Of a stretch of 64,000 bases of DNA, positions 7,201 to 63,701 are shown piece by piece. Under the pieces are notes generated by a model, which made no database searches, was not told the origin of the DNA, and worked only from the letters and a program-made list of their open reading frames with translations. Origin of the DNA: Cliona cf. orientalis (taxonomy: Eukaryota; Porifera; Demospongiae; Clionaida; Clionaidae); the NCBI GenBank assembly GCA_963930775.1, contig OZ005695.1, forward strand, positions 744,001 through 808,000, read 5' to 3'. A program made the position numbers and the translations under genes. Each line of letters begins with the position of its first letter. Position 1 is the first letter of the stretch.

Positions 7201-7500
7201 GATTAAAGGAATCTTAAAATTTATTCTTCTTTGTATAGGCTGGTTAGCACAGATGAGGAGAACAAGCAGCTAAAGATAGAAATGAGTGAGCTTCGAGCTA
7301 GACACAAGGTTGAGCTGGAGAGAGTGCGGCAGGGCAAGGAGAGAGAGATGGAGGAAGTCCACGGGAGAGTCAAGCAAGCTCTGGCAAAGAAGGAGGAGAA
7401 CTTGACCAGCCTCAGGCAGCAGTATGAGGCGGCGCTAAAGAGAGCAGACCACTTGGAAATGTTACTCGAGAGACAGAGAAAGGAATTACTCAAGAAATAA
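1247..7500 (+). CDS. CEP131: Centrosomal protein of 131 kDa (AZI1/CEP131)
   Basis: Twelve exons: 1247..1318, 1592..1942, 2036..2845, 3147..3290, 3414..3985, 4244..4495, 4782..5204, 5509..5670, 5901..6102, 6348..6518, 6750..6904, 7239..7500. Together they give 3,576 nt (1,191 aa), in frame from ATG to TAA. The N-terminal third is low-complexity and Ser/Gly-rich, then comes an IQ-like motif (AASRIQQWYRENK), SLLASKRDELNRSRNEELQR, a basic Arg/Glu coiled coil, and a LQSILSYLDEMDK block. The C-terminal half is continuous coiled coil including MAQRLELDNKNKTVEMLQ, IQRHQCFIDQ and LIDDKKVLSERCE, signature segments of animal CEP131. Vertebrate CEP131 is about 1,080 aa, a centriolar-satellite and ciliary-base protein linked to BBSome and IFT traffic. 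Introns hold a MITE pair (2866-3087, 5270-5496) and a tandem duplication (4528-4780). It converges on the hydrolase gene, with 209 bp between the stop codons. Confidence 0.93.
2866..3087. mobile_element. MITE-like inverted-repeat element, family A copy 1 (CEP131 intron 3)
   Basis: Both ends read TACCGTATAGC-GGAAA when the right end is reverse-complemented, and the inverted similarity extends about 45 bp inward (AATTAAATTTGGC). No coding capacity. It lies wholly inside the intron 2846-3146. Copy 2 is at 5270-5496 in the opposite orientation. Confidence 0.8.
4528..4780 (+). repeat. Tandem duplication of about 125 bp ending at a CEP131 splice acceptor
   Basis: Two adjacent units share GTATCCATCCACTT, AATTTTCA-TCTTCAGATAA, TTTTGTCATTT-GCACTCGC and CTGATGCATGTATGT. 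The first ends ...TATGTGTAAC; the second ends ...TATGTAG, immediately followed by exon 7 at 4782. The active acceptor is therefore in the second copy and the first copy carries a GT in place of the AG. Confidence 0.8.
5270..5496. mobile_element. MITE-like element, family A copy 2 (CEP131 intron 7)
   Basis: Same family as 2866-3087 in reverse orientation: TACCGTATAG at the left and CTATACCGTA at the right, with shared internal blocks (GGCGGTCTATATTACAACC, GGGCTCAATTGCC). It ends 12 bp before exon 8 (5509), so element sequence lies where the polypyrimidine tract and branch region should be. Confidence 0.8.
7004..7024. repeat. Poly-C tract in the last CEP131 intron
   Basis: Homopolymer of about 20 C within a C-rich stretch at 6999-7040. 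The exact length is probably variable and assembly-sensitive. Confidence 0.7.
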
Positions 7501-9532: not shown

Positions 9533-9824
9533 ATGGCAGAAAAGAACATTGAGCACCAATCACTGATTCAGTTTACTGATAATCTGACTCAACGCAACAT
9601 CGTTTCGGTAACTTCTAAGCTTTTTGCCAAGGGTCTTGTGTCTAAGGACGTTCATGACTCCATACTGAGCAGTGATGCTTCAAACCAATCAAAGGCTGCT
9701 AAACTCGTATCATGTGTGCTCGATAAGGTTAAAGAATCTGGTGATCAGTGGCAGATTTTGATTGATGTGCTAGGGGAGGATTCTTACTTGGATGGAATTG
9801 TATTGAAGATTACAAAAATCCGTG
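9533..9824 (+). other. CARD-like death-fold exon of CARD-RNF213
   Basis: Encodes about 97 residues with the helix pattern of a CARD: NLTQRNIVSVTSKLFAKGL, then VSKDVHDSIL, SNQSKAAKLVSCVLDKV, and WQILIDVLGEDSYLDGIVL. This matches the CARD scheme of helix 2-3 LL..GLLS..., a charged short helix, K(A)xKLLD.L..KG, and a final amphipathic helix. CARDs mediate homotypic assembly in apoptosome- and inflammasome-type complexes. A DED or another death fold is possible. The exon ends in phase 1 at 9824 and is followed by an unusually long 1,168-bp intron. Confidence 0.7.
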
Positions 9825-12800
9825 GTAAGCAAATGTAATGTATGATAAGCCATTGAAGCAATGCTCCTATAGTTATGATCAATATCTTGTGATATATTAT
9901 TATGTACTACGCTGGATTAAAGTTTCACCAAGCCTATACAGCTTGTACCTTTGTAGTGCAGAAATTATCTGTTCGCCTATGCAATGTGGTAAATTCGATG
10001 CAATTATCAAAATAATTATTAGCGACTAAGCCTTTTACCAATGAGAGCAGATAAAATTTTAACGTAGTCACATACTAAGAGAGCTACATGTAGTATATAA
10101 ACAAGGGACCATATCCTGTAGCAGAAAGAGATCTAAGGAGGGTGACTATACGAGCAACTGAAATAATTCTAATGAGTAATTTGCAAAAAGAGCATGAATA
10201 ATATTACCATATTATTGTTTTCCCCTCTGAGTCAATGCATAATGCATACACATTCATTGTGCTTTTTGTTCATGCGCACAACTAAGTGGCCAAATATATG
10301 AATGAGTAAAGATCATCAAAATTTTCTGAATAATGCTCATGATATTACTGTTTGGACTGAAATTTGAAGCCCTATGGAACCGAATCAGAATGTAAGATAG
10401 CTATATCAATTATAACAAAATTTAATATGGATAGTGAAATTTATACCTATTAAAGCCTCTGGTGCTTTTTTCCCGGTGACATCATCAGGACTAAACAGCC
10501 ACTATTCTTAAATTCACAAAAATTTTAATTATAACCATGCATGCAAAAATAAATCTACAGATTACGCAATGTGTGTTCTCTACATAGTCTCGTCCCCAGA
10601 CCCCACCCTCAAAAGGAGGGAAAAGGGTCTGGTGACTTCGGACAGTTTTCTTGGTTTGGCCGGCTCTAGACGTGCGTGCGCCTACACGGGTGCACTTGAA
10701 CAAAGCTCGAATCTGATTGGCCAGTAAGGCTGCGTAGGCGATTCAAATTTATATAGCGGGCAATGGCCTTGCTACGTTCCTGTGGCTAGCAAGTCATATG
10801 ATTGGGCTAAAGCTATGATCTGATTGGGACACACAAATTCCTCCGTGGGTCGTCAACTGGACCAAGCTTTTTGCCCAAAGTCACCAGACCCTTTTCCTCC
10901 TCGAGGGTGGGGTCTGGGGATGAGACTAGCTCTACAGAGCTCTAGTTTCTGTTTGTAATCATCCCTATTATTTAACAAATACTGTATTTTAGTCAGCAAA
11001 CCGGTCCTTCAGCAAGGTATCCCACAGCAGTATGATATGGCTGGCATGTGTGCTCAAACTTTGTTGGAGGTGATGTTTGACAAGCTGCAGAGTGGTGAAG
11101 TCAGTATGGCAGATTTGCAGAAGGTTGAAAAGCAAATGCAAGGCCTTCGTTTAGCTACATCTAGTAGCAAAGGTGGAAGATATTCGTACGAATCAGTAGA
11201 AACAGCTGTTCATAAGAGACTTGAGGAGTACAAAGCTGTGAAGAGGCGTAAAGAAGTTCTTAGCCACTTATGCCGTCATATATATTCTGAGGAAGTACAA
11301 GGTATGTCGTATCCTCAGGTGTAGCTTGGTGTGGGTGAGTAACTTGGGCATACATGTAATTCCCTTAAAATTTAATTTTGGTACCATATCCTGAAAACGA
11401 AACTAACAATTGAAGCTATGGGGTATGGTTCGATGAGTCTGGGAAGATCAGATTTTTTTATCACATAACTCATGAGTATGTGATACTAGCTTTCCCCTGT
11501 TATTGTATACAGGACTTAGAGTGCTACAGGCTGAACTTGGGAAGGACAGTGATAACAAGTTAATTAGTACAATGTGTGGGAGAAATGAGAATGACACCAT
11601 AGAGCTTAAATGCTTCCTCTCTGCTGCATCACTCCTGAGATTTGCTAACGAGTTTCAACTTATTAGTGGAGAGACACACTGCAGTGAAATTTTCCTTGGA
11701 TTTTGGAGAAGAACTTTGGATGAAGCTATCACAGACAATCCCCAGCTCTCCCTGAGCGATATTTATGCTTCCGTGTGGCAGCCTTCCCTTGGGCGATGTA
11801 GAAAGCTTCTTGAATCTCTCGAGGACCAAAGCATAAAGCTCTCGGATATGGATACTGACTTGAAGCCCTACTGCGATCGACTGGAAGCTCACCTGGAGCT
11901 ATTAAACAAATGTATGACCAACATTACTCGCATATCAGGAAATCTTTGCCTGATAAAGCAAGCTGTTCGAAGAATAAGAGAATACTGGAATCTCTGCCAT
12001 TATCAGAGAAGTGCTAATACATTTCTCGAACTGAAGAAGACCCTTGGGTTGACCACAGGCGATTTTCAACTCGTGGAGAAGCTATCTCAGCAGGTATAAT
12101 AATTTATTATTGAACTGAATTATCCTCTTGCTTACTCATTGATGCATATAGCTGTCTACTTCAATGAAGGATGAGACTCTAAAAGATATTGATGACAATT
12201 TCATTGAAGCTGGCAGGTCCATGGAAGCTGTTGCGAGGGAGCCAAGTAAAGTGAAGTGCTTGGAGAGTTTTATCAAATGCAAGGAAATAGTCGAGTGGCT
12301 ACAGCGGGAGACAAGAGGTTATTTGTTGTTTGCTTGCTATTCTCCTTTTGACCAAGAATATGCTTACTTTGAATGCAGATGTTCATGAAATTCAGAATTT
12401 TGTGAATGTGGCTCTAGCGACGGCAGCTGGTGGAGAGGGAGACCTGTCACATGACAGACTCTCTCACCTGAGAACAGTCGGTAGTGGGTTTGCTTCTCTG
12501 ATCTATATTTTTCCAGGAGATGCTGACTTTTTTAAGCTCAAGGAGGCTTGTAAATCGGTCTGGGATGCTCTGGATAAGAACAAGAACCTTCCAAAACTTA
12601 TTGTAATTATTTCTATTATAATGGAAATTTATATTTTGAACATTTTTTATAGGAGGATTGTAATAAAGATATCAGCTGGTACCAATCAGTGAAGGAGACA
12701 CGGGGGTCAGTGGAGGTCACATCATATGGACAAATGAGGAACATACTGAGATATGGTATCTACCAAGTCGGTGTTGCCAGTCAATCCAAGCTGCCACAGG

Positions 12801-15800
12801 ACATCCATGACATCATTTTTGTGAAGCTGAACCTCACAAAAGATGTTAACTTAAAGGTGCTTAAGACTTTCTACAACCTTGATGAGCTTCGTGACTTGGA
12901 GAGTGAGCTGGTACTCATCACGGGAAGCAAAGCTGAATACAGGACAGAAGTAGATCACTATTTAAATGTGAGCTCTCTCTCATAGTGCAGGCTTATATCA
13001 CTTGCACATTTTCTCTTTTCAGATCCTCCAATATGTGACCAGAATTGCTGAAGCTTTACTAAATCTACGAAAAGCTGGAAACGTTACGTACTCGGGTTGG
13101 AAAATGTCATTTGACTGTGCAACATACACAGATACTGGCTGGGGGTACGAGCAAGTGCAGCTTCAAGAAGAGAGCGCAGACCAGAGAATAAAACAGCTTC
13201 AAGCTTATGCCAAGATGATGGAGGACGACCTCAACTCGTGGGAGAAGAAGGTGAAGGAATCACGGAGCCGTCACTATGAGCTGAACTACTACACCACGCT
13301 GCAGCTGTTGAGACTGAGAAAGGAGCTTGGTCTTGTACACCAGAATCCTACCAAAATGGTCGATCCACAAATCCTGGCCCTCCTTGAGAGCGTTTCACCA
13401 GCAGTGACGTCAAGTAATGTGCAGGGTATCATTGGTAGTCTTCAGAGGCAGTTAATCGATCTCCAATTGCAAGCTGAAGATTCTGAGGAAAATACTCAGA
13501 TAGAACCTGTCGATATCGCTACCACAGAGGATCTCAGTGGAAGTACAAAGCTTCACACAGAATCTTGTTCATCCATGGAAATGCAACCGACTTCCAGGCT
13601 CTCTTCTGTGAAACCAAGCAACAGACCCCAACTGACTGAGAATGATTTAAATTATAACCAAAAGGAAATTTTCACGGACTTGGTGGAGTATCAGGGGTAT
13701 AATAGACTACTGGTGTTGAAGGCATTTGAACAATTATCAGCAAAATCCAACCTCTACGACATCCATGATTGGTGTGATGAAAAGGATGGCGAGTACGATT
13801 TTGAGGACGAAGAAGAAGAGGAAGAAATTGCAATCTCAAGTGACGAATATTACTCCACAGATTCAGGGTCAGATGATGAGGAGAGGGTGACACAGACTGT
13901 ATTTAATCGAAAATCATTTTCAGGTATGTATATACCTCTTAAGTGAGGCTCGCATACCCCAACATACTTCAGATGGATAATAATAGATAGTTAGTAGGTC
14001 TGTAGAGCTGTCATTCACCTTCAACCCCCAATTTTTTGCTCTACAAATTACGAAATAATCTTGCGTATTAATCACTACAGCTGCAAGTCCTGGTAGTGTG
14101 AAGCATAGAGCCTCTTCAAGCAGCGAGGTCGTCCCCAAAGTGAAGGTCATCCATCGGCCGATTATCAATGAGTCTCACCCCATGGTTCAGCAGCTGGTGG
14201 AGGAGTATGAATACGACCTGGATGCCTCCATTGAAGCAGTTCAGTTGTTTGGGTCCGTGCAGGGAGCCATGGACTACCTGGCAGGAAAGGAAGGTGACAG
14301 TGGGGATGAAGAAATGATTGCCCCTAATGCAGCGTTACTGGAACCAGCTCTTGAGGAAAGGTACTATGTGTATGAATAGTGTAATATATTTTGACAGCTA
14401 AGCTTACTCTTAAAATAGTGGGACTATAATTGTTGTTTTTGATGATCCCGAAGCCGAGAAAAGGTATTTGACTCTTGATCAGCTTGGATTTGTGCTGAAG
14501 CATCTTAGTGAACAACTACCAGGTAGCTATAGCTAAGTATTCATCACACTTCAAGATCTCATGTTACTAATCCTTTTCTATAGCATCTGTGATCGCTAGG
14601 CGAACATTTGATGATCAAGAGCTAAAATCTGGTACTCCGAATCTAATTATCATCCCTGCAAGTAAATAATCATGATTATGCTGTTAGCTATTGCACATTA
14701 CGATGAAACTATACCATTAGGTGATATTTTGAGGACGGTTCTTGCACTCTACATGGACGATGAAGACCTTCCACTGCCAACGTTGGAAGAAGTACTCATC
14801 TGTAACTCTACCACAACTGCTGAAGAGGTACTTACTGTCTGTATGATGATATTTCTGAGATGGGGGTGGGGAGGGGGGGTGTTCCATAATGGTGGCAATG
14901 ATTACAATGCCTAGGTTAATCTTTTGTGGCAAAGAGCAATTGGTGATCCTGGAAAGAAGAGGATCTTCTGCCTGGTCCATGCTGAGAAGCTTTCCTATCA
15001 GGTTTGTGATGAAGTTGTGGGGACATTGAAAGAGCTCTCTCAGGGGAAGCTAGGTAATAAAAAAAATTCTTTGAAAAAATAATATGATATTATCATCCAT
15101 ACTTTTTCTAGACTACCGTTTAGTGATTCTGTGTAGCAAGGAGGGAGAGGATAAGTCACACATAGTGTCCAAACTGCTATTGCATAAGAAATCCATTGTT
15201 CTCAATCACAGTCAAGAGACATACCAGTCATACTTAAAGAACCATTTCATCTGTGGATCTGGTGATTCACTATCCCAAGCTACACCTGATACAGCTTCTG
15301 TTGTAGACTGTGACAAGTATTCGATTTGTTATAACTATTACTATTCAGGAGGTAATATTATGTTATAACTTTCTGCTTGCAGCTCGAGTGTCAGAGTGGT
15401 GTCATCTGAACAATCTGGTATGGGTAAATCACTGTACATCCGCAGAATGGCAGAACAGCTTGAGACAGTCACTGAAGCTAAACTTGAAGATTGCCAAGTA
15501 GTCATTCCCATCCATGGCCCTGTTGTCACACCTGATGTTGTCCTAAAGTTTCTGAAAGAGCACTACCGAAAAAATAAATGTGTTATGTACCATTTTGACA
15601 TTGCTCCCAGTGTAAGAACTAGCTATGATGGCAGATAGCTATAATATTAAAGTTTAATATGAATGTTGAATTTCAGATCCTATCAGAGGTTGATACAATC
15701 CTGTTCAGTCTGCTAATCCTGCATGGACTGACTGATAGTCAAGGTTGCGTATGGCGTCGCCACTTAAGCCAGCTTTACACCATTGAAGTCACCCTCTTGA

Positions 15801-18800
15801 AGAAGGTATGTGACAAAAAATTTAGTATCAACCGATAATTACTTTCATAATAATTGTATAGAGCTCAGAGACAGATCCGGCTGCGAGAACCGTCGATTTG
15901 CTGTCCCTCCTACCAACTGTTAACTGTATCAGTCCAAAAATGGCTAAGGAAGCTTCTGCCCTTGGTAAGGGACATGAATGATCAGTATAGCAAACATTAT
16001 TGAAGTAAACTTTTCCAAATAGACCCATCCCAGATTGGTATGGACCGTGAAGAGTTTGGAAATTCCACATTTCAGAGGGTTTATCAGTATCTGAGAAGAT
16101 GTGAAGCCAATTCAAAACTAATTAACCAGTTTAAGTATGAAGGGCGAGTCGAGGGTGACACAGCTGACTGTCTGCAACACTTACTGAAGTAAGCTGTTAA
16201 TCTTCCTAATTATCTCACAACTGTAATAATGCACAATGATGCTATAGCAATTGTGGAGTTTACAATCCATCGTGGTCTGAAATTCATCATTTTGCCAAGT
16301 TTCTGGATGTGCAGCTGGAGTCCAGCGAAAAATCAGTATTTTGTGATGAACAGTTTGTTGGAGATGTCGTGCCTGCCTTCAAAGCATTTGTTGTCAAGTT
16401 GATGATAAGAATGTCACAGGTATTAAATTTCCCTTCTCCATAATATTGACGATCTATTTCTAATCTCTGCATGTTTTTTAGGATTTTGCAACTCCATCTC
16501 TGGAAGGAGAAGTAGCCAGAGGTAGTGTGGAAGATCAGTCTGTGGGAGATACAAATAATCTTCAACAATACAAAATTGAACGCCGTAGAAAGTGGGAAGA
16601 AAGGTATAATTGTGTTATTATTACTTTGTGTATAATGGACTACAGTTTTAAATAGCTACTAACATTTTTTTAGTTCTCATCCATACCTCTTATTCAATAA
16701 AGATGGATTCAGCTTTACATTCGTTGGTTTCATCATTAATCCCAACGGTGATTTGATTGACTTCAGAAAATGCGTATTGGAACCTCGAATAATGACGCCA
16801 CAGCAGTATACTGGCCTCATGACTAATGGAGTAAACTTTGATGATGATTATCACCAGTGGCAGAAGAGCACAATGATCGAAAAGATTGCCACGGTGATGG
16901 GGATAGAGTTTCCGTACGATCCTGATGAGACTTACGTCCTGACGGTCGACAATCTGATCAAGATCCTTGCCATTCAGATGAGGTTCCATTGTGGTATTCC
17001 AGTGGTGATCATGGGAGAGACTGGCTGTGGAAAGACAAGGCTCATAAGATACATGTGTGACCTGGCCAGGGAAGGCCGAGAAGCAAGAAATATGCTCATT
17101 TTAAAGGTTCTATGTCACTCTGCATGCATACATCAGGGTTGCATACAGGATTTTTTTTTTTCTGAAAGGGGGAAATCTCATGTGTATATACATATGTGTA
17201 TATGTGTCGCTGCTATGTGTATACTAGTAAATAAATCACACAATAATGCTATAATGAACAGACAATATCTTCTTGCTTATGTATGTAATTGTGCTGTTAT
17301 ATTATTATGGAATTCTGGGGGGGGGGGGGGGGGGGGGGGGGATCCCAGTGCACATTCCCCCCTCTGTATGCAACCCTGTACATGTAGTTATATTATAATA
17401 TGTCCTTACTTTAGGTTCATGGAGGAACCAAAGAGGAGGATATCATTCAATTCATAGCAGAAGCTGAGGAGGAGGCGAAGAAGAATAGAGCCTTAAACAT
17501 AGACACCGTGGTGTTCTTTGATCAAGCCAACACGACTGATGCCATTGGTCTGATCAAAGAGATACTCTGCGACAGACGGTTACATGGAAGACCAGTTTCA
17601 GATGATCTGAAGCTCATTGCTGCCTGCAACCCTTACCGGAGGTGAGTTTATTAACTGATGATATCATAATTGAATTCATCATGAAACAGGCATTCAGATG
17701 AAATGATCAAAAGATTGGAGAAGGCTGGTTTAGCATTCTATGTGAGATCCTCAGAGACACAGCAAAGACAAGGTGTTGTGTGTGTCAATTTTTTTATTCA
17801 TTTCATGTCACATCTGTATGCAGGTCGTATTCCTCTACATGAACTTGTGCACCGTGTGCTTGACCTCCCTCCCAGCATGAGACCTCTAGTATATGATTTT
17901 GGCCAACTCAAGAAGGGTACAGAGGATGAGTACATTGAGCATATTGTCGGTGACCATGTAAGTGGGATCTGAATACCAACTATGAGAGTGCTCATTTTCA
18001 CTGTTTGCTGTGATCTCACATGCAGGTGCAAAAACATTCCGCACTTTCAAAGGAGGATCCTGGCATTGTTTCAGCCATAGCCAGTGTGTTGGCTGCCTCA
18101 CAGGCCTACATGAGGAAGCGTGAAGTAATACTTAACGGTCTTAGACTATAATAATTGTTATTATGGCTGCAGTTAGTGATCAAGTATTGAATTAATGTTG
18201 TAGGACGAGTGCAGTTTTGTGAGTCTCCGTGATGTGGAGAGAGCAATGATTGTCTTTACATACTTCTGTGAGAAGATACCTGATTTCCAGAAGGAAGCTA
18301 AAGAAATACCACTAGTACAGGTATACACATGTAAAATAAAATATTGCATGCATCCACAGACACCGTTTGGTATGTATGTATGCAGGCCGCTCAGGGCGAT
18401 CCTTCTCTAAGGACCATTACTTCTGCGCTGATCCTGGCAGTCAGTGTGTGCTACCTCTCCAGACTCCAGGACAGGAAGGAGTATGAGAAACATATATCTG
18501 AACACTTTGTGTCCCCCCTTGTCTTACCTGGAAAAGAAGCACAGTTTGTACAGGAGATTTGCTGGTTAGTATAATCATGTATTTTTCATATAAGATAGCT
18601 TTGCCTCCCCAGTAAATCTTTTCAAACTGTAGCATACAAACATGCACTTGCTCTTGATTTGCTACATAATTATGACAGGTATCAGAATGTATTGCTGGAC
18701 AACATGGTGCTTGGTCCAAACATAGCCAAGAATGCAGCTCTGAGAGAAAACGTGTTCATGATGGCCATCTGCATTGAGCTGAGAATCCCTCTCTTCCTCG

Positions 18801-21800
18801 TTGGCAAGCCAGGGAGCTCCAAATCACTAGCTAAATCCATCATCCAGGACTCCATGCACGGCAAAAACTCTCGTAACGAGCTACTGAAGAAATTTAAGCA
18901 AATTCAAATGTTTTCCTGTCAGTGTAGTCAGCTAGCCACCTCTGAGAGTGTGATTGAGGTGTTCAATTCTGCTAAAAAGTTTCAAGATAGGTCAGATATC
19001 ACTCATTTGGTGTCAGTGGTCGTTCTTGATAATGTTGGTCTGGCAGAGGACTCCCCCAACCTTCCCCTCAAAACTCTCCACTCACTGCTGGAGGATGGAA
19101 CAGAGGGAGCTGGGGCCAAGGGGGAAGACGAGGCAAGTAGATTCTGTTGCTGGATGTGATGAAGGATTGAATTAGCTATTTTTTGTATTTCAGATCATCG
19201 AAAGGGAGAAAAGAGTTGCGTTCATCGGTATCTCCAACTGGGCCCTGGACCCAGCCAAGATGAACAGAGGAGTGATGGTGACCAGAGGGACTCCCGATAT
19301 CAAGGAACTGGAGTTCAGCGCTGGAGGGATCTGTGGCAAAGAGGACTATGATCGGATAGAGAACCAGCTTGAACCATACTTCAAACCACTGGCACAAGCT
19401 TATGAAGTTATTTGCTACAAGCAAAAGCGAGAATACTTTGGTCTTAGAGATTTCTACAGGTTTGCTCATCGTTTTTGTGGTGTGCAATTGCATATCAGTG
19501 TCATATACATGCTTCTATTTTGACTTGATCTGTAGCTTGATCAAGATGTTGTACTGGATGTGCAAAAAGTCCCGAAGTCGACCCCTGACCTGGCCTCAGA
19601 TGAAGCATGCCATCATGAGAAACTTTGGAGGGCTGAAATCGGATGAAGTTGACCCATTTCATGAATTTTGTAAGAGGCTGAACATGGTTGAGGAAGAACC
19701 AGACCCAGAAATATACATGGATGATCAAGAGGTAGCTATAAGCAATCAGTTTATTTATCTGTATTTATAGCCTGTTGCTATGTGGTTGCTAAGGTATGTA
19801 CAGGGTACTATTATATGTGATACAGTCCCTCCGTGTAGGGTTCACAAGACCAACACTAAGATTTCCTTTAGTTATATTTACCAAAACATGACATTTCCTA
19901 CACATGATTGTCAGAGGATAGGGCAGAATTTTCGCTAACTTAAATGAAATATGTAGAAAATTTGCCCTATCCTACATATTTCCTATCTGCATGAAATCCA
20001 TATCATCCAGTGGTTCATATCTATATGTTTATGCTATGTTCCTGAGAGCCAGAGCAAACATTCATACAGTTCTTATGGGCCAACAATATGACTATATATT
20101 ATTGAAACAATAGGCTAGAAAAATTTGTTATCAACCAAATCCCTCGCTTTGTATGCAGCCTGTACAGAAGCACTCGTCCCTCAGGCTTTGCCCTCGGGAT
20201 TTATACTTTTATACGTACTGCATACAAACCTCGGGAGTTGGTCAATAACTATACACATATGTCATGCTCTATGCTTGGATAGATATGGCCAATTGTTAGT
20301 CCTGATTGCTCAAGGCTAGGTCTGATCAAGACTAGCTTAGACACGAGAGAGACCAGCTTCCATGGGTGAGGATCTATTAAGAAAATTCAATATTAATATG
20401 CTTCAAGAGAATCACATTTTACAGAAAAAATCGTTACCTTTTGTTCCTGACTGAGAACTATGCTGCTTTGGACATCCTCAAGTACTACATCAGAGGAAAG
20501 GACCATGACCCATCTACAACTGGTGATGCCGAAGATAGCATTTTCTCACAAAAACCTTTCATTCTATTTGGCAGTAGCTTTCCCAAGGACAGAGAATATA
20601 CTCAGGTACTAATAGTTTTGCATTTTAACATAATTATGGTGAAAGCAATAGTTATTGTATTCTATTAGGTGTGTAGAAATATCAACCAGATCAAGATTTG
20701 CATGGAGACTGGACGAACAGTGATTCTACTCAATTTTGAAAACCTCTACGAGAGCTTGTACGATGTGTTGAACCAATACTATATGCACTATGGAGACAGC
20801 AGATATGTTGACCTTGGACTTCAGACACACCGAGTGAAGTGTCGAGTGCATAATGATTTCAAGTATGTCGAGCACCAAGTTGGAAACATTTGCATACTGT
20901 CATTAATTTTATCAATGGTATATAATTTCAGATTAATCCTGATCGCTGAGAGGGAGACTGTGTATGAGAAATTCCCCACACCACTGATCAACCGATTGGA
21001 GAAACATTTTATTCTGACTTCATCAATCTTAAAGGACTGGCAGCTGGAAGTATTGGCCGACTTTAAAGAGTGGATCAGCAAATTTTCAAGAATAAGGTAC
21101 TATTGTTTGTTTTTAAGGAGTTGTCTGATACTTTCACTGGCTATATCAAATACGGCACACAGAGATGACAGTGGAAAGGGAAACTTTGAGGAAGGCCATG
21201 CTTTCATTGGGTACCAGAAGGACACCCCAGCTGCTGTGGTGTTCCAGGCTTCCAAACAGCTAAAGAAGTACAGGAAAGGGCTTTCGATGAGTAGGCTGAG
21301 TGAGAGTGGCATTCTAGGTGACATACCTACGGAAGAGCTTGTAAAGGAAGCTAAAGGTTCTGATATGTGGAAAGATGCTGTAAGTAAAAAAAAAAAAACT
21401 TCAGGCATAAATAGTAATGGTATTTTTGATTTTCATATGTTTACATCCAGGTGCTGAGATTGAGCCAGTTCTTGCTGCTCCAGACAGCTTCTGATGACTC
21501 CCTTGTTCGTCTTGCGATGACAGAGCTTGCTCACCAGCAGGAGGAACTCATGAGGCTCTACTTCAACGAGCAGCACCACAAATCTGTTGCCGATTTTATA
21601 TCTTATCATATTCAAAATAGTGACGAAACCAAGGAGGGACTGCTCTTGCAGGTGATAAAATATTGACTTGTCATCAGTGCATATTATTCAGTTGGTGTGG
21701 TAAAATAATGATAAAGGTTACTACGCATGATCATATCTTGCTACGAGAAGAAGTGATAGAGCTGGTGAATGTGGGAGCTCTTGTCGACATGAAAGTGGAG

Positions 21801-24800
21801 TCGTTCCTTCTCCAAGAATTTGACACGGAGCTTGACTTTTCCAACAAAGTTGGGTAAGATGATATCATTTTTGAATATTCTGAATCACCTTTAGTAACCT
21901 TTTTTTCTTTCTTTGATAGTCCAATGTTCCAGAGAGATGAAGAGGACAAGCAAAACCGACTCTTAGTGATTCAGTGTGACTCCGGTCACTTGAATGGTGA
22001 CCTCATAGCATGCGCAAAATACCGCGTATACTATGAACGAGTTAATGCATTGAATAAGAACAAAATTCAGAACAGGGACGGCGTAACGCACATACTTTTC
22101 ATCATCAACTTGCCCCATCAAGTCTCTTCTTCCACTTTTGTCGGTTTTCAAGGCAATCTTTGGATCTCTTCTTACATCGATGACCTCCGGCCGACCTCTA
22201 GTGACACTGTTGAACCGTTGCATGCCATAGCAACAAACATTAGCGAACTGTTCATCGGTGAGTATATCCACGATATTGCACCACTCTTGGAGGGAACACT
22301 TGCAGAAGTTGCTCCATGCCTACTACAAACGTTTCAGGAGAAAGAATCATCCACAAAACCGGAAATACATCCAACTGCTCAGAAATTGGGGATGAGGCAA
22401 ACTCCAAGTGGCCAGTGTAGACGACTGTATGGCTGTATTCAGGCAGCTGCTTCAAGACTTGAAGACTCAACCAAAGATCGCTCTACGCAGAGAGTCACAC
22501 ATTTGACCAAGCTTATTCAAAGATCTCCTAAACACCTAGGTAAATAATACTTACTAAATTTTTGTATAGTATTTCAATAATTTTGATCTGCAGATCCTCA
22601 GAGTTTTCATGGCATTTTGGTGATGCATATTTATCGACTGCTCCAAGAGAGAGAATCAGATAAGCCAGATCTTGCCAACTGGGTCCTTGATGAAGCTCTG
22701 AATTCTAGTAGTCTCGAGGTTGGGGGTACATTTAGAAATGTCCTCGCCTGCAAGATTGATGAAGTTGTCATCCCAATATTTGCCGAAATCATAGCTAGCA
22801 TTGATCACAACTACAACCTCGACCATATTAATCCCAATGCTGGAGACACACCTCTAGTTCAGTTCTGGCTGGCCATGTTTAAAGATCCACAGGTTCAACA
22901 ACTTCAGTACTCCGAGATGACGCAAGGAGGAAAGGTTATTGGACTTGGAGGAAGAATGCTGGATCAAGATTTTAAGTGCAAGCTGCCTTTCTTTTGGCTC
23001 ATCAAAGATGCTGTGGATTCTCAGTGGGATTATGCCAAAAACAAAGCTGGTATTGTCATTGTATTATATTCATCGACTGAATAAATATATATGTCTGTAT
23101 GAGTTATACTAGAAATTATTCTGCATGAAATTTCCAGGTCCTGGAGCAAGTTGGCAAGTGCATCATGAGCATCTTTGCGAGTGTGTTGGTGATACTCCAG
23201 TAGGGGTAGTACTGAGGGCAGTGGATTCCGACAACTGTGAAGTATTCTACAGCTTATACCTTCATGACTTTGTGATGGGCATGCACAGATGCAAGCATAA
23301 GAGTTCAGACCTCAAAGCTATGGAAGTAAAGGTATCTATAGACTAAATAAAATTAATGATTCGGTACCTACCATGCACTATCTTTGCTCAGCTTGTCTTT
23401 GATGCATTGGATCACATTGTGCACTGTTCAGTGTTTCAACACAAATCCTCACTAACTTCAATGATTGCTGCACTGCATCTTGCCTATGGGATGAACAAGT
23501 CTCAGCTTCTTTGGTTCAATCAGCTTGTTTCCCACTCACCCAGTATTATGCTCAGCCTGGAGGGAGTACTTCCTTCAGAAGATGCTCAAGAAATGGTGTG
23601 TTATACACACGTATATATATGAGCACCATAGGATGTGACAATTTTGGTTGGTGTGGTTATAGGAGCTCCATTTGTATGCTGCTGAGAAGGTGATAGAGAA
23701 ACTGGAGCCACCTCTTCAGAAAGACAACCCCAACGCCAACCTGGCCCAGTGGCTTAACCACGTTAGGCTCTCTCAGAATACCATCGATTTAGTCCTGAGT
23801 TTAAGATCCCAAAATAAACGTGTTATTAAAGCAAGGTATGATCATATGTAAATAGTATACATACTGTTTGAGATGTTAATTCTGTACCTTTTAGACAAAA
23901 CTGGAGTAGACTGCGTGCAATTCAGCTCTTTGTAGAGCAGGTGATGCTAAAACACCCAGAAATAGCAAGTTTGAAACTCATGGCAAGACGACTGTGTAGG
24001 GTGAGTACAAACCTCATGGCCCATGAACTAGCTAAGCTACACGTAATAATTATTTTCTTTCATGATCAGCGCTGGGAGGATAGCTGTGATTTCCTGAAGT
24101 TCAGCACAGTAAATGGTGTGCAGCTGCAGTTGAACTCCATGGAGAAAATGTTGAAGAAAGAGAAAGGGTGTGATGAAAAGAAGAGGAGAGAAGTCAAACG
24201 AAGTTGCCGTGGGTTCTTCATGGAGATTATATCCAACTTGTGTTTCAAGGGCCAAGCAGCTCCTGAGCCAGATCTCGTGAAGATGCTACTGGACATCGTC
24301 TTCATGGAGAAGGGTAAACTACACACACAAGAGCTCACACCTTACAAAGATGATAAGTCAGCGGGGGACAAAATCCCAACTGTGCGATCATTCTTGCTTC
24401 AACTCCTTCTAGAGCACAGGTATATAATTATCACAAAATTATTTCTTTCGTGGATTTAATAATGATATTACTCTTTTAGTATATGCCAAGTGGAAGTTCA
24501 CCTGAGAGACTACTTGGATAGATCTTATCGTCTGCTTGTGGAAAATGAAGCTGAAGTTGCTGACCAAAACCTCTACCTATTGATCATTCAGTGCTTTGAG
24601 GTGTGTGTGTGTGTGTGAGTGCATGCATGTGATGTTATGTGCAAGTGACAACCAAACTGCTCTCAAGTATCATTCACTCACTATAGGATGCACTGTATAT
24701 GAAGTTGTCCACCCAGGATTTAGTTAGCATTGTTCAAGAAGTCACTGAAATCCTAAATAAAGGCTATTGTGGTCTTCAAGAGCATCGACATGGCACGCCA

Positions 24801-27800
24801 ACACTGGAGTACCTAGAGGGTGTGGCCAAGGTCCGCTACTCTCTTTCAGTCGTAGCTGAAGTTCTCAAAGAAGATCTTAAAGGACACTATTTTGTGGAGT
24901 TGTTGAAAGCTGCAGCAAAGATGTGCTCTGATCTTGAAGTCAACTGCATTGACCCAGCTCAGTGGCAAAATACTATGGGACCTCTGATCTACCTCCTCAA
25001 GCTGATTGTGAGGCAGTATGGCATGCCATGCCTCAGAGTAGCAGCTCAAGTTCATGACTGGCTCATCCCAGCCCGGCTGAAGACTAAGCATGTGAGTAAT
25101 GGTAATAATTGCAATAATAATTATTGCAGAAAATGCAAGATCAATGTGCATATTAAATGTATAGGAGAAATCAATGGATCCATTTGCTATTTATGACGAT
25201 CACTACAAAAAGCTCCGAGAAGCCGTGGGTGTTGCCATTCATGGTGACCAAATCAGTGCCTTGATAAAAGCAACACAGGTAGCTATTCTAGTATGTGAGA
25301 CTATCCAGCTGCATTTTTTATTGTTTTCTCATACTCTTGACTCACCCTCTCTCTCACTCTCTCGTTCATAATAACTATGCATAATTTTATAGACTTTGAA
25401 ATTTGTGGAGGTTCCATATATCTTACTGGCATTGTATGAAAAGGCCACCCTCAGTAGAACAACTGACAGTAAAATCAGCGATGATGTAAGTAAATTTCTC
25501 CAGCTAATTTTCTGATGTCTTCATACCCTATGACACCATTCAACAGGCTCTTGAGAGGCTGAACAAATTTATCAAGAACTACCGGTCATTCTCCAACGAG
25601 GTACGATTAACAGCCAGAGCACTGCTAGCCAACCAGCAAGGAGGAAGGGTCTTGGAGCAGATGGTTGTGTCTCCACGGCAACCACTTCAGTACAGGACTA
25701 TCTTGGGGATCGTGGTACATGCAGTCGCTGTGTTTTTTGGTCGACACGACGTGGATATACTGCTGCCTTTTGTGAACATTCTCAACAACCCAGCTCTCTT
25801 GAAAGTATGTAGCAAGCCTGTAATAATATTATAATATGTAACTACTGCATTTTCCCCCTAATAATAATAGCAATGCTTTCTTCCAACCATGCAAGAGGAC
25901 CCCCTGACTGGATCACAGTCAGCTATGATGGCAGGAGGCAAAATTGGACAATTCTATGGTACATATATACTGTACTTGCAAACGCACACTAATTCCACAG
26001 TCACATTGTTATTTTCTTATTTTTATCAGAATGCCCTAATGGTCACAAAACTTTCATTGGAAATGTGAGTTTATTAACATGATACTATTGTACCTTTTAT
26101 ATTGAATATGATTTCGCCAATAGCATGGGCGAACACCCCATACTGGTATGTGTATTATGTGCAAGACACCAATTGGTGGTACCACTGATGATGACTCGGG
26201 GACAGGTGGCAAGCTCTCTAATACGTAGGTTTACAACTCAATAACTGATCAATGATCACAGTCTTACTATGTTACAGTCAAGATACCACCAGGAAAGGCT
26301 ACGATCTTGGAGCCCCAGCCAATCGCACACACACCGCTCCAGAGAGGCACCTCTCAGCCAGAGCTGTCTGCATTCTCAGAGCTTTGATGCACTCTGCTTT
26401 CGTGTGGGCTAGTTGCAACAATCCATCTTCTCTGGGAGCAATCGCCAGCCTCATCACACCTCAGGTCCTACCAAAGGATCTACCAGAATTTTTCTGGGCC
26501 CATTTGGATAAAGATCTTGAACTGCTCGGACGAGACACTGGAAAGGGATTGGATGAGGTTGTGATGATCATTCATCTGGTTCTTCGACAAATCCTTATAA
26601 CAGATCCACCTAGTGGTTGGTTTCATAATTTTGCATGATTATAGAAAATTAATTATTTCTATAAATTAGGTGTGAAATTACAAACAGTCAGCTCTCTTCA
26701 AACCAAGAAGGATCGAAAGGAGTGGGAAAAGCTATTCAATGAACACTACATCCAACCCGTGTTCTCAACTCTGGATGAGAATTTGGCTGAAGCAATGGAC
26801 CGTGTTGCAGACGATGAAAAACAAGGTGAATACGATGTGAAATATCATCGTGTACTTTTGCTCTGGTTTTAGTTTCTGTATAAATGAGTAGATCATGGTC
26901 AGCTGTTCCATTTGGTGTACGAGAAAGTGAAGTATAGTGAAGAGAGCTTGGAGCCACATCTGTGGACCTACCGATCCAGGATCACTCTTGAATATCTTCA
27001 ACAGACTTTGCAGGAGGAGAAAATGAGGCAGGAGTACCCCATCCTCAGTGAATTCTTACAAGCTGTATGTTACTCTCGATCTATAATATGTTATTTATAG
27101 GTTCCGTCACACACACACACATCTGCTTCAAAATTAAGGAAACTGAGTTGCGTGCCACCCAGTACCTTCCAGACATAGCCAGGCTGCAGCAGTGCCTCTA
27201 CGATAAATTCAATCAGCAAATCAACCGGAAAGATATCAAGAAACTGACAATTCAGGCATTTTTAAAAGCAATACCTAATGGTATGTACCATGATCGATAA
27301 GTTTAGAATTTGTTTCTAAGCAATTTTCATTGGGAATTCAGAAACAGCGAAGAATGAATATCGTGAAATGATTAGCAGTGTAAAAGCAGCGTGGGCTCTC
27401 GTTGGACACAAGCTGAAAAACCATGGTAATATATTACATAGATTTATAATGTTATTCATTCTTAATGTTTTTAGGCCGACTACCTGTTGAAGATCGGTTC
27501 TATGTTACTGTAATCGATGACGATACGAAGATGGAGTACCTCGTTCCCACCACGTCGGAGGCTGGTGTATGCACCACAGCCCTGGTGGACTTCCTCACTC
27601 TCACTCACAACAACTTCATTGAAAAGTGCAGAGCTCTTGTGGGAAAGGATGACCAGAGGTAAGTAAATAGTATCATGATAGCCCAATTTTTCACGTTCTC
27701 TTTATTATCCTTCTAGCACCCTCAAATTCTTGAGTGAATATCAAGTTCCCATCACTCACCTGCATCGCTGCCACCTCCTGGACTACGAGCACCAGCTTCC

Positions 27801-29422
27801 CTCCATCATCCTCTCTCACTGCCATTACTCCCTCAAGGTCGGAAAGGGGCAAGATGTCAAATACGACCATCAGGCCCTGGAGAAGCACATCCTCAATCGC
27901 TTCATCCATGGAAAGCCTCTGATCCTTCTGGATATACCTCAGGTGGTGTACAAGAAGGATATTTGTACCACAGGCACCTTTGCAGAAGTCAGGAAGAAAG
28001 TTGCTCCACAGGTACTACCATACTTAATCTAGCATGGAAAGAAAAATAATTTCAATTTTGAAAAACGCACGTTTTTTCTGATAAAAGTCGTCAATCTCTC
28101 CACACATTAATGCTATGAGAATTTGTAAAAATTAATGCTAATTTCTTGCATTAAATTGGACCATGCGTTATATTAAATTAACTTTTGGATGCCTAATATT
28201 ATTTGATCTACTTAGTGAGCTATCGTATTGTTATTCTTGAATATATAGGAGAAACTGCCTCAGCGAGTCCGACAAGATATTATTACCGAGCTTCGCACTC
28301 CAGACCGTCTCCGTGAGGCGCTGGATGTTGTGGAGATTGTTCTTGGTTTCCTCTCCTCTGGAGGGGGAAGGGCCGACAAACCACTAGGGGACTACATTGA
28401 CAAGACCTTGAAAATGGAGGAGAGATATTTCAGCCAAAAGGTAAATCTCTCCCCTGAACCTTATTCTGAATTACTGACATACCAATTATTGTTCTAACTC
28501 AGGCAAAGATGGCATGTCAGCTGAAAGATACTTTATCCCTTTGGGAGACCATTGCAGTGGAGCTAGCTCGACAGCTGTGCCTCAGGGGACAGGAACCATT
28601 TGAATCCATCCGCCAAGAGTTCCTCTGTGAGCTGTTGAAGAAAGGGGGTGGAGAGAATCAGTGTGAGGCTTTGGACCGCTGCCTGGGTCAATTCGACCCA
28701 GATCTCCTGTTGGGGATCCTTTATGAGTTCATTGAGACATACATCAAACATTGTCCTTTGAAAGAACGCAATCAGCAGTAAGTACCTAGTGATAGTAACT
28801 CCCTTCCATATCCCAGCTATTAAAATTTAGGACTTGCTATAATATGTATAATATTATTATAGAGTATGGAGCTGCTTGTGTATACTAGCCTCGTCCCCAG
28901 GCCACTCCCATGTTTTCTGTGTGTAATATTGAAAACGTGGGAGTGGCCTGGGGACAAGGCTAATGTATACATAACTGTGGCCAAATAGCCTTCTTGGCAC
29001 CCCAAGATATGAAATAACCTCGTACCCTAGGCCGCAGAAGAAGGGGGAGAAAGTGTAGTGCAATTGTTTGCAGCACCCCAGTTTTTCGAAGGGGTAGTTG
29101 GCACATGCACGTGCAATAGGTATCAGGCCTTTTCTCCTCCCCCTCAAAGGGTCTGGGGACGAGGCTATATCAGAGGCATCCTCTTTTCAAGGCTACTTAC
29201 TGCTCTGGCATTAGCTATGCACAATCGTTACGTTTTCATCATCACCATGGCATCATAATAATATTATTATGATTCCATTCTTGCAGACTTAAGAAGACAC
29301 TTGAAGCAGTTCTTAAGCAGTATGGTACAGAGCTGCCTCAATTGGACAGGTTTCCAGCCAGTATCAAGCTGGACCAAGCAGTGGCTGCCTGGAAGTACAT
29401 TGTGCACTACTATGCCAATTAA
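9533..29422 (+). CDS. CARD-RNF213: giant AAA+ RNF213-like protein with N-terminal CARD and altered Walker B motifs
   Basis: A 61-exon model (exons listed in the regional entries) sums to 13,281 nt, 4,426 aa, and closes in frame at TAA 29420-29422. The order is CARD-like exon, helical N-arm, two UBA-like segments, AAA modules, E3-shell region without a RING, RZ-type zinc finger, and C-terminal domain. Long stretches are RNF213-specific (GETGCGKTRLIRYM, GKPGSSKSLAKS, ISNWALDPAKMNRG, NQYYMHYGDSRYVDLGLQTH, CPNGH...PIGG). Human RNF213 is a 5,207-aa interferon-inducible ubiquitin ligase that coats lipid droplets and intracellular bacteria and oligomerises with ATP. Compared with the minus-strand copy at 32885-63701, this one lacks zinc ribbons, CBM20 and the first part of the N-arm, and its acidic insert is shortened. 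Many exons are identical in length in both copies (454, 456, 405, 258, 275 nt). The ATG at 9533 is the first in-frame one. Identity as an RNF213 paralogue is very secure; the CARD call is fold-level inference. Confidence 0.93.
9825..10992 (+). other. Long first intron of CARD-RNF213
   Basis: 1,168 bp, about ten times the gene's usual intron. AT-rich; I see no further gene in it. It contains the inverted-repeat element at 10585-10927. Confidence 0.75.
10585..10927. mobile_element. MITE-like element with about 55-bp terminal inverted repeats
   Basis: Left end TAGTCTCGTCCCCAGACCCC, right end reverse-complements to TAGTCTCATCCCCAGACCCC. Similarity continues through AAAAGGGTCTGGTGACTT. No ORF of note. 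Related ends (CCTCGTCCCCAG) recur at 28886-28962 and about 29030-29170. Confidence 0.8.
10993..13923 (+). other. Helical N-arm exons of CARD-RNF213
   Basis: Exons 10993..11301, 11513..12093, 12152..12317, 12379..12602, 12653..12967, 13023..13923. They align exon by exon with 51030..48111 of the minus-strand gene: KLQSGEVSMADLQ versus AHGGQVSVNELE, VHEIQNFVNVALATAAGGEGDL versus a near-identical stretch, and SYGQMRNILRYG versus SYGQMRNILKYG. In human RNF213 this stalk packs against the AAA ring. The first residues after the CARD therefore correspond to roughly residue 1,810 of the sister protein. Confidence 0.85.
13633..14360 (+). other. Two UBA-like segments in CARD-RNF213
   Basis: First segment (about 13633-13795, end of the exon closing at 13923): KEIFTDLVEYQGYNRLLVLK followed by AFEQL and YDIHDWCDEKDG. 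Second (exon 14081..14360): VQQLVEEYEYDLDASIEAVQ then LFGSVQGAMDYLAGKEG. Both fit the three-helix UBA pattern (LVE-x-GY/Y(D)...A(L/F)...A-x-x-(W/Y)L). An acidic linker (DEEEEEE) lies between them. The ubiquitin-binding role is inference. Confidence 0.55.
14419..16603 (+). other. First AAA modules (AAA1/AAA2 region) of CARD-RNF213
   Basis: Exons 14419..14522, 14584..14661, 14721..14827, 14915..15053, 15112..15316, 15383..15611, 15677..15805, 15862..15964, 16023..16188, 16248..16419, 16482..16603. A P-loop-like SSEQSGMGKSLYIRRM begins this module; human RNF213 and the sister gene carry the same short loop form. The downstream HFDIAPS and FQRVYQYLRR blocks are family signatures. Confidence 0.85.
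16674..18564 (+). other. AAA3 module of CARD-RNF213, Walker B Glu replaced by Gln
   Basis: Exons 16674..17106, 17415..17641, 17690..17772, 17824..17957, 18026..18124, 18204..18320, 18386..18564. Walker A is intact (MGETGCGKTRL). Walker B reads VVFFDQANTTDA: codon CAA at about 17523, where the sister gene has GAA (VVFFDEANTTDA). The sensor-type ACNPYRR is kept. In AAA+ enzymes the Walker B glutamate activates the hydrolytic water, and E-to-Q is the classic substitution that allows ATP binding but blocks hydrolysis. Confidence 0.9.
17152..17341. repeat. Low-complexity intron insert with poly-G tract
   Basis: Within the intron 17107-17414. GGTTGCATACAGGATTTTTT at the left and ATGCAACCCTGTA at the right (about 17368) suggest a degraded inverted-repeat element around a tract of about 23 G at 17319-17341. 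Confidence 0.5.
18679..21853 (+). other. AAA4 module and following region of CARD-RNF213, Walker B Glu replaced by Asn
   Basis: Exons 18679..19132, 19194..19459, 19536..19731, 20283..20365, 20425..20605, 20669..20862, 20932..21096, 21163..21379, 21451..21651, 21717..21853. Walker A is intact (VGKPGSSKSLAKS). Walker B reads VVVLDNVGLAEDSP (AAT near 19031), where the sister gene and human RNF213 have VVVLDEVGLAEDSP. GISNWALDPAKMNRG and the arginine-rich VTRGTPDIKE are unchanged. The intron after 19132 has a GC donor (GAG|GCAAGT) and is an apparent GC-AG intron. Confidence 0.9.
19732..20282 (+). other. Intron with two small inverted-repeat elements
   Basis: At 19914-19977, GGATAGGGCAGAATTTTCGC pairs with AAAATTTGCCCTATCC. 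At about 20130-20250, TTATCAACCAAATCCCTCG at the left and CGGGAGTTGGTCAATAA at the right form terminal inverted repeats, with internal TTTGTATGCAG / CTGCATACAAA. No exon of the sister gene is missing here. Confidence 0.65.
21920..25804 (+). other. E3-shell region of CARD-RNF213 lacking the RING finger
   Basis: Exons 21920..22539, 22594..23049, 23138..23331, 23392..23595, 23663..23835, 23895..24000, 24070..24419, 24480..24600, 24687..25091, 25165..25278, 25393..25485, 25547..25804. In human RNF213 the RING lies between a W-x-R-(L/I) IQLFVE-type helix and FF-x-(D/E)-(L/I)(V/I)S-x-x-CFK. Here WSRLRAIQLFVEQVMLKHPE leads, after about 55 residues without any C-x2-C, directly to RGFFMEIISNLCFKGQAAPE. 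The 69-bp intron between exons 23895..24000 and 24070..24419 is too short to hide a RING exon. Confidence 0.85.
25871..26224 (+). other. RZ-type zinc finger of CARD-RNF213
   Basis: Exons 25871..25958, 26030..26064, 26124..26224. Reads ECPNGHKTFIGN / HGRTPH / CIMCKTPIGG. Four of the family's metal or active-site positions are present (Cys, His of GH, and the C-x2-C). The position that is Cys in human (GEC-G) is His here (GN-HG). In human RNF213 the RZ finger, not the RING, has been reported to be required for ubiquitylating bacterial LPS. Confidence 0.88.
26278..29422 (+). other. C-terminal domain of CARD-RNF213
   Basis: Exons 26278..26615, 26670..26825, 26892..27064, 27139..27280, 27342..27425, 27475..27658, 27717..28011, 28249..28440, 28503..28777, 29287..29422. 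Family signatures include YDLGAPANRTH, RALMHSAFVWASCNN, HLHRCHLLDYEHQLPSIILS, MACQLKDTLSLWETIAVELA and the C-terminus KLDQAVAAWKYIVHYYAN. The last intron (28778-29286) carries the hairpin at 28886-28962 and fragments of the same repeat family; I see no gene in it. Confidence 0.88.
28886..28962. repeat. Perfectly foldable short inverted repeat (CCTCGTCCCCAG family)
   Basis: TAGCCTCGTCCCCAGGCCAC at the left, GTGGCCTGGGGACAAGGCTA at the right, arms of about 32 bp. An adjacent fragment to 29170 ends GGGTCTGGGGACGAGGCTA. A partial relative is at about 32666 (AGCCTCATCCTTAGGCCACTCCC). Confidence 0.75.

Positions 29423-32884: not shown

Positions 32885-63701
<30,817 letters not shown>

Follow-up and report, generated by a model that had tools for sequence, protein, structure and literature searches.

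A 64,000-nucleotide stretch of the genome of the sponge Cliona cf. orientalis (C7:744001-808000, here called the window) holds two genes of the RNF213 (mysterin) family, copy A on the forward strand and its sister, copy B, on the reverse strand, in a predicted tail-to-tail arrangement. RNF213 acts as a ligase against a broad range of microbes and is a factor in moyamoya disease, and its need for the ATPase core is still open. In copy A, the catalytic Walker-B glutamate has been replaced in both AAA3 and AAA4. We favor, at a probability of roughly 0.57, the reading that copy A is a maintained RNF213-family pseudoenzyme, predicted from its sequence to be ATP-loaded and ligase-dead and to serve as a scaffold or dominant regulator. 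Purifying selection has acted on copy A over the branch since its split from C7b, its nearest relative. Early decay is the main rival to this reading.

Loss of both Walker-B glutamates in copy A

The window belongs to a genome of 216.8 Mb in 149 contigs. Used as a genome query, the AAA4 exon of copy A finds at least 10 matches, six close (75-100% identity) and four distant (35-38%, on C3), and the AAA3 exon finds at least eight, namely the same six copies (53-100%) and two weak matches; these counts are lower bounds. The close copies are A, B, C7b, C7c, C7d, and C5. In copy A, positions 17514-17537 read TTC TTT GAT CAA GCC AAC ACG ACT (FFDQANTT) in AAA3, and positions 19022-19048 encode VLDNVGLAE in AAA4. 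All five other close copies have GAA (glutamate) at both codons, copy A being the sole exception among the six, and both losses are therefore derived in A. Relative to the other five, the AAA3 codon differs by one base and the AAA4 codon by two. Both motifs, their contrast with the glutamates of copy B, and the two base changes needed in AAA4 had been pointed out in a sequence-only reading of the window, and direct reading confirms them.

The same reading had held that the Walker A and sensor segments are intact in both copies. They are: the Walker A and sensor-1 segments are identical in all six close copies, and in copy A they equal those of mouse RNF213 in the alignment. The proposed natural counterpart of the laboratory ATP-trap substitution is thus found at both competent ATPase sites, with the ATP-binding motifs kept. 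The chance that both Walker-B glutamates would be among the private AAA3-AAA4 changes of copy A (15 of the 323 columns on which the other five copies agree) is 0.002, for randomly drawn columns and in a post hoc test. Gene conversion was considered as the source of the glutamine and asparagine and rejected, because both residues are absent from the other five copies. Conversion-like tracts occur in copy A at 16777-17077 and 27513-28700, where it is nearer to C7d (DNA identity 0.88) and B (up to 0.95) than to C7b.

Likeness to RNF213 and its engineered mutants

Copy A has a dynein-like AAA core with AAA3 and AAA4 of the RNF213 type, and all nine solved chains matched by this core are RNF213 (E 1.1e-220 to 3.3e-215). 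Against the mouse and human proteins (PDB 6tax, 7oik, 8s24), a 791-residue AAA query of copy A aligns over residues 2-791, and the RZ finger and E3 shell align too. Copy A departs from these proteins in having no Walker-B glutamates, RZ Cys/His pair, RING, or N-terminal arm, and it may have gained a CARD-like exon. No family scored above its Pfam cut-off with two open reading frames of the AAA3-AAA4 part, and no relative was found in the viral and prokaryotic collections searched.

The best-scoring solved chain for the core is 9i1i, an engineered mutant of both Walker-B motifs (WB3/WB4), at 738.2 bits versus 737.0 for 6tax, a small margin that probably comes from the shared glutamine. The same two positions are replaced in 9i1i as in copy A. 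The AAA3 glutamine is common to both, whereas AAA4 has glutamine in 9i1i and asparagine in copy A. The 9i1i protein appears, from its published description, to keep the RZ catalytic pair (PMC12075652), which copy A does not. In mouse RNF213, the E-to-Q equivalents disrupt hydrolysis, and in the double mutant (WB34) ATP is modeled in AAA4 but not in AAA3 (PMC12075652). Walker-A mutants strongly reduced E3 activity, whereas Walker-B E-to-Q mutants did not; both WB3 and WB4 keep activity, and WB4 is labeled by an E2-ubiquitin probe at about 100-fold less ATP (PMC12075652). The human B1B2 mutant has both Walker-B motifs disabled, as in copy A, albeit by engineering and in the human protein. Its ATP binding is unaffected by the Walker-B mutation, and its oligomers are stabilized, B1B2 mutants oligomerizing more strongly (PMC3963067). 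E-to-A hydrolysis mutants fail to coat pathogens (PMC11549300).

By analogy with these mutants, Walker-B loss would predict an ATP-loaded protein in a tighter oligomer and not, in itself, a dead ligase. As E3 activity persists in the published Walker-B mutants, this change would not be enough to silence the ligase. Walker B alone accordingly gives no ground for a protein that is locked and inert, as the mouse E3 stays active with hydrolysis blocked (PMC12075652). No paper on natural Walker-B loss in RNF213 was found in a limited literature listing judged by titles and the starts of abstracts.

The ligase side of the protein

In the mouse RZ finger, Cys4462 and His4483 are catalytic, and Cys4451, His4455, Cys4471, and Cys4474 hold zinc; mutation of Cys4462 abolished activity, and a serine there kept autoubiquitination (PMC12075652). 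In copy A, the zinc ligands (Cys, His, Cys, Cys) are all retained, the position of the catalytic Cys (26124-26126) is occupied by His, and that of the catalytic His by Asp. Loss of the second half of the finger was considered and rejected, that half being readable in the DNA. The RING is absent from its aligned place, where phmmer blocks leave 54 residues in copy A versus about 120 in the mouse RING stretch. With the RZ pair lost and no RING in the aligned place, copy A is predicted to be ligase-dead.

By position counting, C7d and C5 have both residues of the RZ pair, C7c has the Cys alone, and B and C7b have neither. In B, the RZ finger (35838-35773, reverse strand) has Ser at the catalytic His position and Tyr at the catalytic Cys position. 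By the same RZ-pair criterion, sister B is also predicted to be ligase-dead, which weakens the suggestion that copy A regulates an active sister. The ATPase motifs of B are indeed intact, but its RZ pair is gone, and it is C7d and C5 that keep the pair. C7b (C7:2742457, reverse strand) resembles B in having Tyr at the catalytic Cys position and in keeping its ATPase motifs. The RING of the other copies was sought by a pattern scan, which would miss an intron-split RING; half-RING patterns occur in A, C7b, C7c, and C5, and by eye none was judged to be a coding RING. Apart from the six copies, G000:C10:8595543-8622319 packs four strong RZ-finger matches, in open frames 629-2002 residues long, into 27 kb. 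We take this cluster to be perhaps ZNFX1-like.

Selective constraint on copy A

The ratio of nonsynonymous to synonymous substitution rates (dN/dS, or omega) was fitted on a tree of four copies after conversion-like tracts had been taken out, using 2,181 of 2,513 filtered codons, and with looser filters on 2,721 and 3,010 codons; similarity filtering lowers omega, and the values are relative. The copy A branch has an omega of 0.18 on the 2,181 codons, and the 698 codons of the AAA core give 0.157. The looser filters give 0.18-0.21 overall and 0.18-0.20 in the core. An omega of 1 is rejected for A by likelihood-ratio tests (LRT), with statistics of 11.5 in the N-terminal subset, 15.3 in the E3 subset, and 24.6-70.1 in the rest. 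The strict run gives C7b an omega of 0.161 for all codons and 0.117 for the core, and A and C7b are not significantly different (LRT 0.19-0.69; p 0.41-0.80 where computed). The comparison of dN/dS between copies, which had been proposed as a check, therefore places copy A at 0.16-0.21, below 1 and not significantly different from C7b. In the E3 part, copy A has no excess of changes over C7b (16/422 versus 12/418).

There is likewise no clear sign that the gene is decaying. The modeled exons of copy A (about 4,400 codons) showed no stop or frameshift. The exon models are home-made and homology-guided, and the iterated version forbids stops by construction, so that its lack of stops proves nothing and decay was tested separately. 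Peptides encoded by exons of the five other close copies match A in 253 of 302 cases; six of these matches hold a stop in A, and every such stop falls outside the model exons. The number of events called by a lesion-tolerant model is 1 for A; 4 each for B, C7b, and C7d; 7 for C5; and 16 for C7c. The single call in A, at 12974, proved on inspection by eye to be an ordinary intron, and the lesion counts are therefore mostly method noise. Had copy A been neutral for 2% of its branch, about 9 lesions would be expected and the probability of finding none would be 8e-5, given assumed rates (indels at 10% of substitutions, nonsense at 4.5%). The splice donor ahead of the Walker-B exon is weak, but this was rejected as a mark of decay, since the donor is off consensus in five matched copies, A included.

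Alternative explanations

Several points weigh against a maintained pseudoenzyme. The motor part of copy A evolves more freely than in C7b: of the AAA3-AAA4 columns on which the respective other copies agree, 15 of 323 are changed in A versus 4 of 312 in C7b (Fisher p 0.018), the excess remains at p 0.046 without the two Walker-B columns, and this fits relaxed constraint on the motor. (Private changes in this module number 8/316 in B, 7/315 in C7d, 18/326 in C7c, and 34/342 in C5, the last two being longer-branched.) The strict run puts the point estimate of omega for A above that for C7b, without significance, whether for all codons, the AAA core, or the E3 part; omega averages over the branch as a whole and does not single out selection after the losses. 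The four distant RNF213-like genes on C3 (L007-L010), with an AAA4-like module 35-38% identical to copy A, differ from it in having long open frames and in belonging to a different subfamily. Three of the four keep the AAA4 glutamate. The fourth, L010 (G000:C3:1108584-1108979), reads IDAADLS where its three relatives have MDEAGLP, a second Walker-B loss; its frame diverges from that of L008 further on, and it looks broken. Such a loss can therefore accompany decay. Finally, because serine kept autoubiquitination in the mouse protein, loss of activity by the His of copy A is likely but not certain.

The excess of AAA changes, the missing N-terminal arm, and the example of L010 together make the case that copy A is at the first stage of pseudogenisation, its losses being accidents of relaxed constraint in a frame that is still unbroken. 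We consider this somewhat improbable, given about 4,400 codons with no stop or frameshift, the small probability of such a count under the assumed lesion rates, an omega not significantly different from that of C7b, and the untouched Walker A motifs and zinc ligands. It is unlikely that the substituted sites still hydrolyze ATP slowly, the motor being tuned down and not off. Some Walker-B substitutions do spare turnover in P-loop proteins. Against this, the E-to-Q equivalents are described as disrupting hydrolysis in mouse RNF213 (PMC12075652). Blocked hydrolysis could also, in principle, yield a ligase that is always on, with ATP staying bound and the E3 permanently active, as the activity of the mouse WB3 and WB4 mutants and the labeling of WB4 at about 100-fold less ATP would allow (PMC12075652). 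The lost RZ pair disfavors this outcome, as mutation of the mouse Cys abolished activity (serine retained it), and so does the missing RING at the aligned position; the prospect is a very slim one. An assembly or base-call error at both Walker-B codons is hardly credible. The codons do rest on one assembly, but three base changes would be needed in two codons 1.5 kb apart, the frame is intact, and the contig is 9.99 Mb long.

The N-terminus and the CARD-like exon

Upstream N-terminal pieces are kept in C7b, C7c, C7d, and C5. The N-terminal sequences of B, C7d, and C5, used as queries, matched copy A only from about 10.97 kb, besides one weak C5 match at 2724-2846. A CARD-like exon lies ahead of this point and, as read from the sequence of the junction, would join the exon at 10993 in frame if spliced. 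Part of it was present in an earlier exon model; the final model is without it and begins with four short exons (2020-7373) that lack family support.

The Pfam CARD match of this exon (7.5e-4, 19.9 bits) is under the cut-off of 23.9 bits, and none of the four relatives submitted with it matched Pfam CARD. The genome has 84 CARD matches at E up to 0.1; together with RNF213 they would fit an animal host, and the short introns would fit a sponge. The exon itself matches 49 places in the genome, at least six of which are also Pfam CARD matches, and three relatives on C10 (71-77% identity) have the same donor. Searched against the regions retrieved for the other copies, it gave no match better than E 0.07. 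A single-sequence fold has a mean predicted local distance difference test score (pLDDT) of 68.4 and a predicted strand at either end, and Foldseek with this fold gives several CARDs among the rows listed, the best E of any row being 0.52. "CARD-like" is a fair label; CARD identity and fusion to copy A are not proven. For the earlier designation of the gene as the CARD copy, the Pfam score is thus below threshold.

Gene models

The features of both copies are collected in Table 1. In copy A, the iterated model departs from the homologous frame, which is itself open, at about 15.7-15.9 kb and 16.5-16.6 kb at the least. The intron preceding the AAA3 Walker-B exon contains a run of 25 G (window 17317-17341).

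Table 1. Features of copies A and B, in window coordinates
Feature	Position	Strand	Basis or remark
Copy A gene (proposed): CARD-like exon and RNF213/mysterin-like body	9533..29422	+	homology-guided exon models
CARD-like exon, 97 codons and one base, phase-1 donor CGTG/GTAAGC	9533..9824	+	Pfam; near copy A only
Copy A RNF213-like body	from 10993	+	about 4,400 codons over 58 exons of the model; no N-terminal arm
First RNF213-homologous exon of copy A	10993..11301	+	acceptor and phase from sequence; 60% identical to C7b stretch
AAA3 Walker A GETGCGKT, intact, copy A	17014..17037	+	alignment to mouse; six-copy comparison
Exon with AAA3 Walker B, copy A	17415..17641	+	exon models, splice-site comparison; six strong genome matches
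AAA3 Walker B catalytic codon CAA (Gln), copy A	17523..17525	+	direct reading; GAA in five other close copies
AAA3 sensor-1 AACNPYR, intact, copy A	17619..17639	+	alignment to mouse; six-copy comparison
AAA4 Walker A VGKPGSSKS, intact, copy A	18800..18826	+	alignment to mouse; six-copy comparison
AAA4 Walker B catalytic codon AAT (Asn), copy A	19031..19033	+	direct reading; GAA in five other close copies
AAA4 sensor-1 GISNWALDPAKMNR, intact, copy A	19227..19268	+	alignment to mouse; six-copy comparison
RZ finger first half CPNGHKTFIGN, zinc Cys and His kept, copy A	26032..26064	+	alignment to mouse
RZ finger second half HGRTPHTGMCIMCKTPIGGTTD, two zinc Cys kept, copy A	26124..26189	+	alignment to mouse
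Sister copy B	32885..61613	-	predicted span, N-terminus uncertain
RZ catalytic Cys position, Tyr, copy B	35838-35836	-	
AAA4 Walker B VLDEVGLAE, intact, copy B	43303-43277	-	
AAA3 Walker B FFDEANTT, intact, copy B	44826-44803	-	

Possible role of copy A

As a maintained pseudoenzyme, copy A would bind ATP at AAA3 and AAA4 and stay ATP-loaded, would favor a stable oligomeric state by analogy with the human Walker-B double mutant, and would be unable to pass ubiquitin. In putative mixed oligomers with C7d and C5, the copies with a working RZ pair, it could act as a scaffold or dominant regulator, and its recruitment might be through the CARD-like head. That a natural RNF213 kept by selection, disarmed at both ATPase sites and at the ubiquitin-transfer site and with a CARD-like head replacing the arm, forms an ATP-locked, death-fold-coupled platform or a dominant regulator of the ligase-competent copies is a doubtful proposal. 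The six close copies vary in the subset of active-site residues that each keeps and offer a ready comparison. If the maintained-pseudoenzyme reading is true, a natural paralogue that has shed the residues for hydrolysis and ubiquitin transfer while keeping the ATP-binding motifs would point to a function of the ring separate from both enzyme activities.

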